Shown piece by piece: positions 35,715 to 41,084 of a stretch of 64,000 nt of DNA. The notes beneath the pieces are model-generated. The model made no database searches, was not told the DNA's origin, and saw only the letters and a list, made by a program, of their open reading frames with translations. The DNA is taken from the NCBI RefSeq assembly GCF_001719045.1, contig NZ_CP015423.1, positions 4,587,501-4,651,500 on the forward strand. The letters run 5' to 3'. The DNA comes from Paenibacillus polymyxa (GTDB lineage: Bacteria; Bacillota; Bacilli; Paenibacillales; Paenibacillaceae). The position numbers and the translations under genes are program-made. Within the stretch, counting starts at the first letter, position 1; each line of letters starts with the position of its first letter.

Positions 35715-36263
35715 ATGATGTTATCACCAAAACAAGAAGAGAGCCTTAGTAAATTTATGAGTAAAATTCTTAGGCATACACCAGAACAGTTTGGAATTAA
35801 GTTGGACCATGAAGGTTATTGCCACGTGCAAGACTTAATTTCAGCAATTAAATCAGAGAATAGATGGTCGGATATAGGAGAAGCAGGGATTGATCAAGTC
35901 GTAACTAATTGTCCAAAGAAGCGATACCACATGGTAAATGGATACATACGAGCGAACTACGGGCACAGTGCAGGAAGATTAGATTACAAAGAATCCATTC
36001 CGCCAACTGCTCTTTATCACGGAACAAATAGGAAAGTAGTTGATAAAATTATTACCGAGGGAATTAAACCAATGGGGAGAAAATATGTTCATCTATCTGA
36101 GACACTTGAATTTGCAACATTGGCAGGTAAGAGACGTGGTGAATTAGTCATTCTTGAAGTCGATACAGTAAAAGCGCTGGATAATAATGTGAAGTTCTAT
36201 ATCGCTAACAATGGTGTTTGGCTTGCCGATTTTGTGCCTCCACAATATTTTAAAAAAATTTAA
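35715..36263 (+). CDS. kptA: RNA 2'-phosphotransferase KptA/Tpt1
   Basis: Transfers a 2'-phosphate from an RNA splice junction to NAD, giving ADP-ribose 1'',2''-cyclic phosphate. The family motifs are in order: LSKFMSKILRHTPEQFGIKL, then RYHMVNGYIRANYGHS, LYHGTNRKVVDKI, GRKYVHLSETLEFA and NNGVWLADFVPPQYF. Arg and His of the NAD/RNA site (LRH, RANYGHS, LYHGT) are present. AAGGAG precedes two adjacent ATG codons (35715, 35718). Bacteria have no tRNA splicing of this kind, so the role may be repair of damaged RNA. It follows a small membrane protein, an arrangement duplicated at 44.4-45.1 kb. Confidence 0.9.
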   Translation: MMLSPKQEESLSKFMSKILRHTPEQFGIKLDHEGYCHVQDLISAIKSENRWSDIGEAGIDQVVTNCPKKRYHMVNGYIRANYGHSAGRLDYKESIPPTALYHGTNRKVVDKIITEGIKPMGRKYVHLSETLEFATLAGKRRGELVILEVDTVKALDNNVKFYIANNGVWLADFVPPQYFKKI

Positions 36264-36537: not shown

Positions 36538-37665
36538 TTGGGGAGAATATTGGTTCCACCTGATAAGCTAATGGAAGTGGCTGACCAGTTCTTGCATGGT
36601 AAACACGAAATGGAACGTATGTTGAATTTACTGAATGGAAGAATTGATTTTGTCCAACAAGGCTGGTCTGGAGCTACCCAGGAGAGATTTTTTCAAGAAT
36701 TTCAGGTTTCTCGACAATCCATGAATGTAACGATTGAACGACTATCGACAGTAGCACAAGAACTTATTTTTATTTCAAAAAACTTTACACAGGTGGACAG
36801 GGAGAAAGTCGTACTGGATGTGCCGTGGCTTGGTACCCCTGTTAAAACGGCATCCACAGGTGGAGGCTGGTTACATAAAATATTTGAACAAATGGGACGA
36901 GCTGAGATCACCAAGGCTGAAGCTCAATTGGAAGCTAGCAAACTTCAAGGAGAAATCCTTTGGGATACTGCACAGGGAGCAAAAGGAGCTATTCAGGGAA
37001 ATTTGACATTGGGGATGCTGCCAGATAAAGAACGGGATTATGATCATCCCATGGCAGCTAAAGTAGGAGAAATTCTCGGGAATGTAGCTACAACATTGCA
37101 AGGGGCTGGTGAGGTAGTAGCTGGAATAGGTGGGGAAGGATTATCAGTTGCTGTTTCATCTACAGGTGTAGGGAGTATAATCGGAGTACCCGGATTAATT
37201 GGATCGGCAGCTTTGGCGACGCACGGAGCTACAACTGCGGTTAAAAGTGCAAATGGAGTAGGAGAAAAAACAGCAGAACTATGGCAAATGGTAAAAGGGG
37301 AAGGTGCTCCTTCTTATGGGAAGAAATCTGTTCCATCAGGTCCTTACCGTGAAGTAGACGGTTACCCTATAAAAGTAAAACATGGGGATCAGGAGAAGCA
37401 TATTGTGGGGACACCCAACTACAAACAAGACTTAGCAAATGGTAAGAACAAGAGTATTCTCTATGGTGATAACAAAACCGCACAAGAATTGCTTGATAGT
37501 TATTCTGGAGAAGGTGATATGTTTAAAGCCGGACGGGAAAGGATTGATTTCGGAAAACCTATTGGGAAATACTATAATAGAGATACTGGTATGTTCGAGG
37601 AAACCACAAAAGGAATTATTCATTATAGTAAAGATGGCGCACATATTGTACCAGCAGCGCCTTAA
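36538..37665 (+). CDS. WXG100-type polymorphic toxin with Ntox50-like C-terminal domain
   Basis: 375 residues. Residues about 1-90 form a WXG100-like helical hairpin (QGWSGATQERFFQEF) that targets the protein for type VII secretion. A glycine-rich pre-toxin region at about 160-250 follows (GEVVAGIGGEGLSVAVSSTG). The C-terminal 100 residues match polymorphic toxin type 50: VKHGDQEKHIVGTPNYKQDL, ERIDFGKPIGKYYNRDTG and IHYSKDGAHIVPAAP, whose conserved His residues suggest RNase activity. The start is TTG 36538, inferred from the family N terminus (MGRILVPP); the ribosome-binding site is weak. The immunity gene follows 16 bases later. The 130 bases upstream are duplicated at 33.2 kb. Confidence 0.8.
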   Translation: MGRILVPPDKLMEVADQFLHGKHEMERMLNLLNGRIDFVQQGWSGATQERFFQEFQVSRQSMNVTIERLSTVAQELIFISKNFTQVDREKVVLDVPWLGTPVKTASTGGGWLHKIFEQMGRAEITKAEAQLEASKLQGEILWDTAQGAKGAIQGNLTLGMLPDKERDYDHPMAAKVGEILGNVATTLQGAGEVVAGIGGEGLSVAVSSTGVGSIIGVPGLIGSAALATHGATTAVKSANGVGEKTAELWQMVKGEGAPSYGKKSVPSGPYREVDGYPIKVKHGDQEKHIVGTPNYKQDLANGKNKSILYGDNKTAQELLDSYSGEGDMFKAGRERIDFGKPIGKYYNRDTGMFEETTKGIIHYSKDGAHIVPAAP

Positions 37666-37681
37666 ACCAAGGAGGAATATT

Positions 37682-38011
37682 ATGGGATATGATTCTTTAA
37701 TTAAAGCTATTATTTCAGTACCAAAAGAAGAATTAACTATTTATTGGGAAAGTGGATTAAAGATTATTGGTACTAGGGACACCATCTATGAAACAAACAA
37801 TGGCTTAGATGAAGATGATAATGGGTTCTTTGAATATGATGCTGCGGTTGTTGAAGTTAAAAAAATAGTATCTAAGCCGATTACCGATGAAGGAAGTATA
37901 TATAAATGGTTACAAAAAGGAAAAAGCTCCTTTATTGAAATTTCTCTGCATGATGACCCCCCTAGCATGATCACATCTTCTGACGGGTCTATTATTTGGA
38001 AAAATGAATAA
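37682..38011 (+). CDS. Inferred immunity protein for the Ntox50-like toxin
   Basis: 109 acidic residues from ATG 37682, which has AAGGAGG at good spacing: YDSLIKAIISVPKEELTIYW, ETNNGLDEDDNGFFEYDAAV and SSFIEISLHDDPPSMITSS. No signal peptide. Position directly after the toxin, small size and acidity are typical of cognate immunity proteins. I do not recognise the family from sequence alone. A terminator follows. Confidence 0.65.
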   Translation: MGYDSLIKAIISVPKEELTIYWESGLKIIGTRDTIYETNNGLDEDDNGFFEYDAAVVEVKKIVSKPITDEGSIYKWLQKGKSSFIEISLHDDPPSMITSSDGSIIWKNE

Positions 38012-38286: not shown

Positions 38287-38925
38287 TTGTTGTCTACATT
38301 TGTGATAGTGTGTGTCATTGTTGTATTAATTGCTTTGGTATTGCTACGCTTATTTAAAAAGCCTAGAGTTCAAGACCGATATAAAGTAACGCAGGATATT
38401 GATCCTTATAAAATTAGCATTAACGAAATAGATCGTATGGAGGATGGCAAGGACTTTGAAATGTATCTGTTCAGGTTCTTCCTGTGTTTAGGCTATGGTG
38501 ATGCGTATAAAACACAAGACAGCGGAGATTTTGGAACAGATTTGGTATTTACGGATAGAGAAGGATACCGCAATGTCATTCAGGCTAAACGGTATGCAAT
38601 AAGCAATCCTGTTGGTTTGAGCGCAGTTCAGGAAGTGTATAGTTCTATGCGATTTTATAGAGCTAAGAAATCTATTGTCATTACTTCAAGTAAATACACT
38701 CCTTCATGTGAAAAGTTGGCCAGTTTTAATGGAGTGAAGCTGTTGGATCGCAACGATTTAATTAAAATGATTGAACTATTTCAAGCGCAGCAACATAGTA
38801 AGGTAAAAGATATAATTGAAGCGGAGCCTTATTTGAGTCTCGATTCATGGGACGATTATAGAAATAACGGTAAAGTGATTAAAAAGGATCGTAAGGCTGA
38901 AAAGCTTATCGCTTCAGAAAACTAG
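38287..38925 (+). CDS. Membrane-anchored Mrr-like restriction endonuclease domain protein
   Basis: 212 residues. One N-terminal membrane helix (FVIVCVIVVLIALVLLRLF) is followed by an Mrr-type PD-(D/E)XK nuclease domain: DGKDFEMYLFRFFLCLGYGD, then GDFGTDLVFTDREGYRNVIQ and QAKRYA, giving the D...QxK active site, and VITSSKYTPSCEKLA. TTG 38287 or 38290 follows AAGGAGG. Membrane-tethered Mrr-cat proteins are common in Firmicutes and may degrade foreign or modified DNA entering the cell; no methylase accompanies it. Confidence 0.8.
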   Translation: MLSTFVIVCVIVVLIALVLLRLFKKPRVQDRYKVTQDIDPYKISINEIDRMEDGKDFEMYLFRFFLCLGYGDAYKTQDSGDFGTDLVFTDREGYRNVIQAKRYAISNPVGLSAVQEVYSSMRFYRAKKSIVITSSKYTPSCEKLASFNGVKLLDRNDLIKMIELFQAQQHSKVKDIIEAEPYLSLDSWDDYRNNGKVIKKDRKAEKLIASEN

Positions 38926-39017: not shown

Positions 39018-40289
39018 ATGATTATCAATACGAACATTGTGGCAACAGTTGCAAGTAACAACTTAAAAAAGCGTGCAGGTTTTGTCAATAAAACGATGGA
39101 GAAGTTATCATCAGGACTACGTATTAATCGTGCGTCTGACGATGCGGCTGGTTTAGCAATATCAGAGAGCATGAGAGCGCAGATTCGTGGATTACATCAA
39201 TCTTCACATAATGCTCAAGATGGTATTTCTCTCCTACAAACAGCAGATGGAGCCTTGGCAAGTGTTAATAATTCTTTGCATAGAATCAGGGAACTAATTA
39301 TTCAGAAGGAAAATGGGACACTACAAAATAGTGATAAAGAGAATATTCTTAATGAGATGGTTGAATTGCTTGATCATATTGATGGTATAACTAGCAATAC
39401 TGAGTTCAATGGAATTAATTTGTTTGATGGCTCGTTCTCTAAGAATGTTTACGCTGATGGTAATATTCCAATTACAATAAATAACATGGATTTCGGCTTA
39501 TACTATAAAGAAAACTTTGACGATCATAATAAATTCTCACAGTGGTTTTCCGATGCTGGGCAGTGGAGTGTGAAGAATGGAGAACTTAGGCAAGAAACAT
39601 TAGGAATAGGAGACAAAACAATATTGTCTCAAGTGATTAAGGATAATGAGATGACAATAACTGTAGATGCAGAATTTACATCTGCTGATAAAGACGGTAA
39701 TGTAGGAATTATTATAAAGGGTAAGGACTTTAATAATCAGGTGTTTGGTTGGTATAGTCAGTATGGTGGGATATACTTAGGTGAAAGAGTGAATGGAGTA
39801 TACAGAAATATCGGACTAGTAGGGGCAGAAGCAGCGAATGTGGGAAAGACTTATAAGCTTTCCGCTTCAGTTGTTGAAGACTATTATACCTTCTCGGTTG
39901 AAGGGATAGGTGACATAAACGGCTACTCTGTTAACTCAAGTATGGTTGAAGGATATACAGGAGTGTTTACAGCTTTTTCAGAGAGTTCATTCGATAACTA
40001 CAAAGTGATCCCTTCAATTACTGTAGAAGATATTGATAACGCTACTAATAAAGTGTTATCAGAACGTTCTAAATTGGGAGCTTACCAAAATCGCTTGGAG
40101 CATGCAATTAACAATATCAACAACTATACGGAGAATCTCACTTCTGCGGAATCTCGCATTCGTGATGCTGACATGGCTAAACAAATGACCCAGTTGGCTA
40201 AAAATCAGATTATGCTTCAGACATCACAAGCAATTCTGACACAGGCTAATATGCAGCCAGAGAGTATGTTGCAATTGCTCAAGCCTTAA
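39018..40289 (+). CDS. Flagellin with a concanavalin/laminin-G-like insert
   Basis: 423 residues. The conserved N-terminal D0/D1 region (1-145: MIINTNIVATVASNNLKK, SSGLRINRASDDAAGLAISE) and C-terminal D1/D0 region (335-423: SAESRIRDADMAKQM, LAKNQIMLQTSQAILTQANM) are standard flagellin. Residues about 160-332 replace the variable domain. They contain ENFDDHNKFSQWFSDAGQWS, VKNGELRQ, GNVGIIIKGKDFNNQVFGWY and SFDNYKV, the pattern of a laminin-G/concanavalin-like jelly roll. The filament would display this domain on its outside. GGGAGA precedes the ATG. The gene is isolated from any flagellar operon and sits beside a recombinase scrap, so it is an accessory flagellin. Confidence 0.85.
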   Translation: MIINTNIVATVASNNLKKRAGFVNKTMEKLSSGLRINRASDDAAGLAISESMRAQIRGLHQSSHNAQDGISLLQTADGALASVNNSLHRIRELIIQKENGTLQNSDKENILNEMVELLDHIDGITSNTEFNGINLFDGSFSKNVYADGNIPITINNMDFGLYYKENFDDHNKFSQWFSDAGQWSVKNGELRQETLGIGDKTILSQVIKDNEMTITVDAEFTSADKDGNVGIIIKGKDFNNQVFGWYSQYGGIYLGERVNGVYRNIGLVGAEAANVGKTYKLSASVVEDYYTFSVEGIGDINGYSVNSSMVEGYTGVFTAFSESSFDNYKVIPSITVEDIDNATNKVLSERSKLGAYQNRLEHAINNINNYTENLTSAESRIRDADMAKQMTQLAKNQIMLQTSQAILTQANMQPESMLQLLKP

Positions 40290-40318
40290 ATTGTTAATTA
40301 TAATGGTTTTATGCTATA

Positions 40319-40662
40319 GGCGCACATATAGTTATTCTCGATATTCCAATTCTTGACACTAGACAATACCATAATGGGTTAGAGAAAGTTATATCCAGTA
40401 TTGTGCTTGAAATGTTTAGCTACATGGCAGAACGTGAACGCGAGAAGATCAAAGGCAGACAAAAGAAGGGATAGCAGCAGCTAAACAATGGTGTGTATTT
40501 GGTCGGCCTAAACAGGCAATAAGCGAGGAGTTCATTACAGTGTATGAGGAATGGAAGCAAGGCTGCATAACAGCAGTGGAAGCCATGAAACGTGTGGATA
40601 TGAAACCAAACACATTTTACCGTAGGATAGAGGAATATGAGCAACAGCAACAAGCAGGATAA
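40319..40662 (+). pseudogene. Serine recombinase/resolvase remnant
   Basis: The frame GAHIVILDIPILDT ... LEMFSYMAEREREKIKGRQK is followed, after a one-base shift near 40464, by EGIAAAKQWCVFGRPKQAIS and a helix-turn-helix-like end (MKPNTFYRRIEEYEQ). It corresponds to the middle and C-terminal part of a Tn3/Hin-type serine recombinase. The catalytic N-terminal part is absent. It marks a lost mobile element behind the flagellin gene. Confidence 0.7.
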
Positions 40663-41084
40663 AATAATAATTATGTACACACCAGTACACTGTTACTGCC
40701 CAGACGATTATGTCTAGTTTTTTTGTCATGTCTGCTGATCAATATTAACAGGTGCAATAAAAAAGGGTGGGGGGATTTTACATCGTAAACGTCTATTTAA
40801 TTTCCAGAATTGCCTCTAGCACATCCACTTTCACACTCGAGTTATTTTTTGACTCGGTACCATCCCGAATATCGTTAAGGTTGCTTATATGCTATACATC
40901 AAATCTAAGGTAAATCCATAGATAAATTACAAGGGAATACGAACATGACTATTCAATTAGGTAACTTTGTAAGCCTTGAGTTGCATTCTGATTTTCCAAA
41001 TAAATTATACATAAGCATAAAGATGATACTTTTAATTATGAAATCATCGCAGACTATCTCAAAAGGTATCTTGATACCAAATAT
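40663..41084. other. Intergenic region
   Basis: About 420 bases, AT-rich. A weak hairpin with a T run is at 40702-40727 (AGAC...GTCT). On the minus strand at 40796-40885 a short open stretch ends VKVDVLEAILEIK, possibly the tail of a lost gene. Nothing else is supported. Confidence 0.35.

Follow-up and report, generated by a model that had tools for sequence, protein, structure and literature searches.

An accessory flagellin of Paenibacillus polymyxa with a CBM66-like module in its variable region

In a stretch of 64,000 nucleotides from Paenibacillus polymyxa (contig NZ_CP015423.1, positions 4,587,501 to 4,651,500, termed the window in the following), an orphan flagellin gene encodes a protein in which a module resembling the carbohydrate-binding family CBM66 takes the place of the outer flagellin domains D2/D3. 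We consider it fairly probable that this accessory flagellin mixes into the filament, where it would act as a multivalent polysaccharide adhesin. In the window, the gene and the parts of its product are arranged as follows:

39018..40289, + strand, orphan (accessory) flagellin gene, 423 amino acids, CBM66-like middle (open reading frame, Pfam)
39018..39449, + strand, N-terminal flagellin region, residues 1-144, D0/D1 (PF00669)
39450..39488, + strand, linker, residues 145-157 (gap from the Pfam N region to the aligned module start)
39489..40013, + strand, CBM66/PF06439-like beta-sandwich module, residues 158-332 (identity tables, Pfam, profile and fold comparisons)
40026..40286, + strand, C-terminal flagellin region, residues 337-423, D1/D0 (PF00700)

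Architecture of the accessory flagellin

An earlier note on this DNA, made by a model from the letters alone, had proposed an accessory flagellin at 39018-40289. The open reading frame (ORF) starts with ATG and matches these ends exactly, and the proposal is confirmed by both termini of the protein, which score over the Pfam cut-offs. Here, Flagellin_N (PF00669) covers residues 3-140 (E 8.2e-42, 143 bits against a cut-off of 26.6) and Flagellin_C (PF00700) covers residues 337-421 (E 9.5e-25, 87.2 bits against a cut-off of 23). The third and last row of this Pfam scan is DUF155 at residues 344-408, below its cut-off. Between both flagellin domains lie approximately 175 residues where D2/D3 would be expected. 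The motifs ENFDD and SFDNYKV, noted previously near the two ends of this insert, are present at residues 165-169 and 324-330, respectively, and the secondary structure prediction of the insert consists almost entirely of beta strands with one four-residue helix.

Flagellinolysins carry the zinc metallopeptidase motif HExxH. This motif is not found in the insert, whose sole histidine lies within DDHNKF, and by this measure the insert does not belong to the flagellinolysins.

Relationship of the insert to CBM66/PF06439 modules

Scanned alone, the window's own insert (residues 158-332) has no Pfam match. When seven other inserts were scanned one by one, three matched PF06439 (3keto-disac_hyd). 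Among these, the P0007 insert scored highest; it covers profile positions 6-186 of 187 (E 4e-5) with 24.2 bits, just below the cut-off of 26.8 bits; the other two reach E-values of 0.0014 and 0.0041. By Pfam score, neither the window insert nor its best relative P0007 thus qualifies as a member of CBM66/PF06439, and the insert is therefore named CBM66-like.

A profile of eight inserts (A2) matched at least 37 of 394 Paenibacillaceae genomes at E ≤ 0.01, these counts being lower bounds since at most eight candidates per genome were scored. Among the matches listed, three are the orphan flagellin itself and 36 others belong to open frames with lengths of 77-2454 amino acids; many of the latter are partial and weaker, and the full-length ones include G355 (E 9.9e-8, positions 3-173) and G204 (E 7.3e-7, positions 6-173), with E-values given per genome. 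The Pfam architecture was read for seven of these 36 and, in addition, for L011, a pectate lyase of the own genome, which carries PF06439. Six of the seven contain PF06439 over the cut-off, and in five of these six an enzyme-type domain is present over the cut-off as well: a beta-helix in L034, GH28 in L037, a GH2-type TIM-barrel in L038, GH127 in L049 and an arabinofuranosidase domain in L044. L035 has PF06439 without an enzyme domain, while L033 has a GH42 domain without a PF06439 match. The own genome holds six PF06439 domains over the cut-off in three frames of 747-1651 amino acids, namely two GH32 proteins and one pectate lyase. One of these frames, that of 1651 amino acids, is located approximately 9 kb to the left of the window (G000:C1:4576015-4579008) and has three PF06439 matches in addition to GH32.

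The insert was linked to these enzymes by profile-profile comparison. Using hhalign, A2 aligned with five enzyme modules, which had been realigned without insert rows, at Prob 98.6, E 1.2e-15 and a score of 97.2, against a maximum of 21.3 in 200 column shuffles. Therefore, the likeness between insert and enzyme modules is beyond chance. A reversed profile scored 15.3 against the first alignment of the five modules, and the variable regions of ten other Paenibacillus flagellins scored at most 18.2, these ten being single sequences, not profiles, and two of them, L026 and L027, coming from proteins whose reading began at inner methionines. In single comparisons with A2, scores of 36.5-51.5 were reached by four of the five modules, and the module of the pectate lyase from the own genome scored 20.7 (Prob 2.8). 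The pairwise BLASTP alignment of the P0007 insert with the L034 module gave an identity of 28% (48 of 171 positions) and, as a single comparison, an E of 3e-10. These sequence comparisons show common descent of the insert and the CBM66/PF06439-type beta-sandwich modules that are carried by secreted polysaccharide enzymes in the Paenibacillaceae. The flagellin inserts form a subfamily of their own, being 62-95% identical to the window insert, compared with 16-26% for the five enzyme modules.

Fold of the insert and its comparison with levanase CBM66

Since the full-length structure prediction was poor (mean predicted local distance difference test score, pLDDT, 56.8), the insert was folded alone (mean pLDDT 58.1). 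The best Foldseek and VIA-align matches of this weak model are the CBM66 chains of the Bacillus subtilis levanase SacC (PDB 4azz, 4b1l, 4b1m; PF06439). Their length is similar (161-165 residues vs. 175 in the insert), and a profile combining three inserts with five enzyme modules matches this CBM66 at E 1.4e-19, part of this score being due to the enzyme rows. On the other hand, the identity in the structure alignments is 14-16%, the SacC module is carried by a GH32 enzyme instead of a flagellin, and it is not found by the insert alone: PDB searches gave nothing reliable, with a best E of 0.14 for the sequence and 0.15 for the profile. Galectin, thrombospondin, laminin/neurexin and GH43 rows also occur in the fold lists and are read as general beta-sandwich likeness.

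The suggestion that a concanavalin-like jelly roll replaces D2/D3 is supported by the sequence profiles and more weakly by the fold comparison. As relatives of the insert, CBM66/PF06439 modules of secreted polysaccharide enzymes are a closer fit than laminin-G or GH16. A normal D2/D3 domain had been set beforehand as the outcome that would speak against the claim; no flagellin appeared among the best 50 rows of each fold search or in the PDB search with the insert profile, a missing match not being a proof.

Several points weaken the case for a kinship with CBM66. The low confidence of the insert model limits what the fold comparison can contribute. Furthermore, four of the five enzyme modules were picked because the insert profile found them, which may have biased the score. 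An independent set of six own-genome modules that were not picked by the insert (A3; one chosen by eye within the L014 frame instead of the domain that the tool had called there, L016 omitted as below the cut-off) matches the insert profile more weakly, at Prob 75, E 2.5e-5 and a score of 36.9 against a shuffle maximum of 29.6. With the same set, the match to CBM66 of the B. subtilis levanase reaches E 1.2e-54.

Comparison with other domain-bearing flagellins

PMC5595980 reports 61 types of domain for the variable regions of flagellins, among them peptidases, vWFA and sialidase. Flagellins with a cargo domain are thus already known as a kind. The protein described here resembles flagellinolysins and these other flagellins in having a foreign functional domain in the variable region and differs from flagellinolysins in that its cargo is of a carbohydrate-binding and not a catalytic type. 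A CBM66-like cargo is absent from the top-10 list of that paper, and a literature search by titles and abstract starts yielded no description of a flagellin with a carbohydrate-binding module among the matches listed. The Paenibacillaceae enzyme modules, such as those of the beta-helix protein L034, L037 (GH28) and L049 (GH127), are sequence homologs of the insert, but they are joined to enzymes and distant from it in sequence.

Distribution and origin of the fusion

A search for the same fusion elsewhere, which had been recommended as a check, was successful. Within 5.8 billion protein clusters, 11 proteins carry the fusion together with both flagellin Pfam domains. Five of them have an organism name, in all cases Paenibacillus, and near-identical proteins are named P. 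jamilae and P. polymyxa. This search was restricted to proteins with 0.55-1.75 times the length of the query and with short exact words in common, so that much longer or more divergent fusions would have escaped it. On genome level, the fusion is present in 3 of 75 Paenibacillus genomes, the own genome included. Scanning genome contigs with the single insert confirmed none, and with the profile one, from P. illinoisensis. None of 195 pattern-matching stretches in viral contigs was confirmed, and 12 phage records match the flagellin, none of them over more than 80% of its length. A flagellin of Acetoanaerobium noterae (100% coverage, 38% identity) was set aside, since its variable region is unlike by eye.

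A tree calculated from the flagellin ends alone places eight CBM flagellins on one side of a branch (support 100/98), separated from both the main flagellins and the other large orphan flagellins. The tree does not include three near-copies among the 11 proteins, nor L026 and L027. A single origin of the fusion fits this tree and is supported but not proven, because the root is only a midpoint root.

Fifteen loci were fetched, of which L020, L021 and L024 gave no ORF under the filter used. Other Paenibacillus genomes contain large orphan flagellins of a second kind (L018, L019, L022, L023 and L025; 601-623 amino acids). None of these five resembles the CBM66-like module, and the middles of L018 and L025 are without a Pfam match. 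L026 and L027 represent a third kind with a different, uncharacterized middle (L026 was scanned with Pfam).

Conservation and selection

According to PMC7018530, the center of flagellins is usually hypervariable. In the orphan flagellin the pattern is reversed and the insert is the most conserved part. Seven of the 11 fusion proteins were compared, resulting in 21 pairs. In 20 of these, the identity of the core insert exceeds that of both the N- and the C-terminal region, the exception being the close pair P0001-P0006. Between G000, the own genome, and G012, the ends of the main flagellin are 81% and 83% identical, whereas those of the orphan flagellin reach only 59% and 55%; the orphan inserts, by comparison, are 62.8% identical (P0001 against P0010 or P0012).

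The ratio of nonsynonymous to synonymous substitutions (dN/dS) points in the same direction. For the orphan flagellin, one pair, G012-G055, was usable, since the gene copy in the window is saturated at silent sites against the other two loci. Here, dN/dS is 0.153 for the N-terminal region, 0.069 for the insert and 0.183 for the C-terminal region; for the ends of the main flagellin in three genomes it is 0.114-0.164. In this one pair, the values of 0.069-0.183 indicate purifying selection on the whole orphan gene, which is strongest on the insert. The tighter constraint on the outer domain than on the core suggests that the outer domain has a function under selection.

This function would not have to be sugar binding. 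The insert could be derived from a carbohydrate-binding module and now serve solely as a structural or stabilizing outer domain of the filament, which we regard as unlikely. Flagellin outer domains can be structural, as indicated by the title of PMC8931119, on outer domain dimerization that modulates motility. The conservation of the insert would also fit packing between subunits, and the separate subfamily formed by the inserts is in line with such a change of role. However, packing predicts that D0/D1 co-evolves with the insert, yet D0/D1 diverges faster than the insert and faster than in the main flagellin. In addition, in the sequences scanned, this type of module is otherwise found on polysaccharide enzymes.

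Other flagellin loci and expression signals

The own genome, a single contig of 5.76 Mb, contains three Flagellin_N loci: the orphan, the main flagellin and a frame of 303 amino acids. The main flagellin is located at 2280351, near csrA and fliW, and has 256 amino acids counted from the first MIIN. The 303-amino-acid frame adjoins it and is taken as FlgL-like by position alone. Both are 2.3 Mb away from the orphan, which is thus isolated, as had been noted before.

Using the sigma-D consensus, seven sigma-D-like sites were found in the window, where 4.9 are expected by chance, and none of them is near or upstream of the orphan flagellin gene. The sigma-70-like sites in the window are at chance level as well (seven found vs. 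6.4 expected). Together with the distance from the flagellar genes, the missing sigma-D-like site would be compatible with a silent or decaying gene acquired by horizontal transfer and not made into filaments. The fast evolution of its D0/D1 could be read in the same way, and a profile search revealed three shortened copies in other P. polymyxa strains (P0013, P0014 and P0015), in which sequencing errors are possible; in P0015 the flagellin end continues into the recombinase remnant described below. We judge decay to be very improbable, since the open frame is full-length in each of the three copies read at the DNA level and dN/dS of the pair G012-G055 is far below 1 in all segments.

Proposed function of the CBM66-like module

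Because the N- and C-terminal flagellin regions are intact, the orphan flagellin would most likely leave the cell through the flagellar secretion system and most likely assemble into the filament in a mixture with the main flagellin. As the latter is little more than D0/D1, the modules would project from an otherwise smooth filament. There they may bind a polysaccharide, which could be a fructan (e.g., levan), a pectic polymer or a different glycan of the matrix, and the filament would act as a multivalent adhesin.

According to PMC11002231, the one CBM66 known for a long time binds the non-reducing fructose ends of levan and inulin. A second one, CsCBM66, binds neither of these two but recognizes xanthan-lyase-treated (XLT) xanthan. 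Further relatives occur on pectate lyases, levanases and arabinanases, and their specificity is described there as uncharacterized. Based on these known ligands and on the occurrence of PF06439 on GH32 proteins and a pectate lyase in the own genome, a fructan or pectic ligand may serve as a first guess by analogy. Cellulose as ligand has no specific support.

Flagella stick to surfaces, as a rule without a dedicated binding domain. More tentatively, the array of modules might have been selected for binding and not for swimming, forming a lectin flagellum that attaches to or senses fructan or pectic polymers of the root or the biofilm matrix; this is possible but somewhat doubtful. If the binding is true, the protein would offer a separable test case for the adhesion of flagella to polysaccharides as well as a natural scaffold that shows modules along the filament.

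Genomic slot and neighboring genes

The orphan gene is flanked by two further features, which mark the edges of a variable slot:

38287..38925, + strand, Mrr-type restriction endonuclease gene, left neighbor of the slot (PF04471, E 5e-25; conserved in G061 and G045)
40304..40659, + strand, serine recombinase remnant, start missing, two frames, right edge of the slot (homology to a G045 ORF)

The remnant consists of two pieces in different frames (40304-40471 and 40438-40659), of which the first matches Resolvase weakly (E 0.022) and the second has no match. Its identification rests on the DNA at 40316-40852, which is 80% identical to a stretch of G045 holding an intact ORF of 183 amino acids with a Resolvase domain (E 2.2e-17). 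The recombinase scrap described earlier next to the gene is hereby substantiated.

In G061 and G045, the Mrr gene and the right-hand stretch are kept 4.0-4.5 kb apart, without an insert match and without a flagellin among the ORFs of at least 100 amino acids in between. The slot of G045 contains other ORFs and the intact Resolvase-family recombinase, that of G061 other ORFs, one of them tyrosine-recombinase-like by eye. Since these two relatives hold other genes between the same flanks, the orphan gene sits in an exchangeable slot. In G012 and G055 it is found at another place, beside guaA (GMP synthase confirmed in G012).

Such a slot with an adjoining broken recombinase, the patchy occurrence in 3 of 75 genomes and the second location could indicate a surface-variation gene, i.e., a rare alternative coat that alters antigenicity or phage sensitivity. 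This appears improbable, since the outer domain should then be the most diverse part. Instead, it varies least in 20 of 21 pairs, and in the single pair that was usable its dN/dS is the lowest of all segments.

Beside the serine recombinase of G045, an ORF composed almost purely of lysine codons (L069:5985-6446) was observed, probably a poly-A run or an assembly artifact. Further left in the window, the gene at 36538-37665 combines a WXG100 N-terminus with a C-terminal Ntox50 domain, by architecture a polymorphic toxin of type VII secretion, and a small ORF following it in the frame 37439-38011 could encode an immunity protein. At 35715-36263, a KptA/Tpt1-type RNA 2'-phosphotransferase (PF01885) is encoded.
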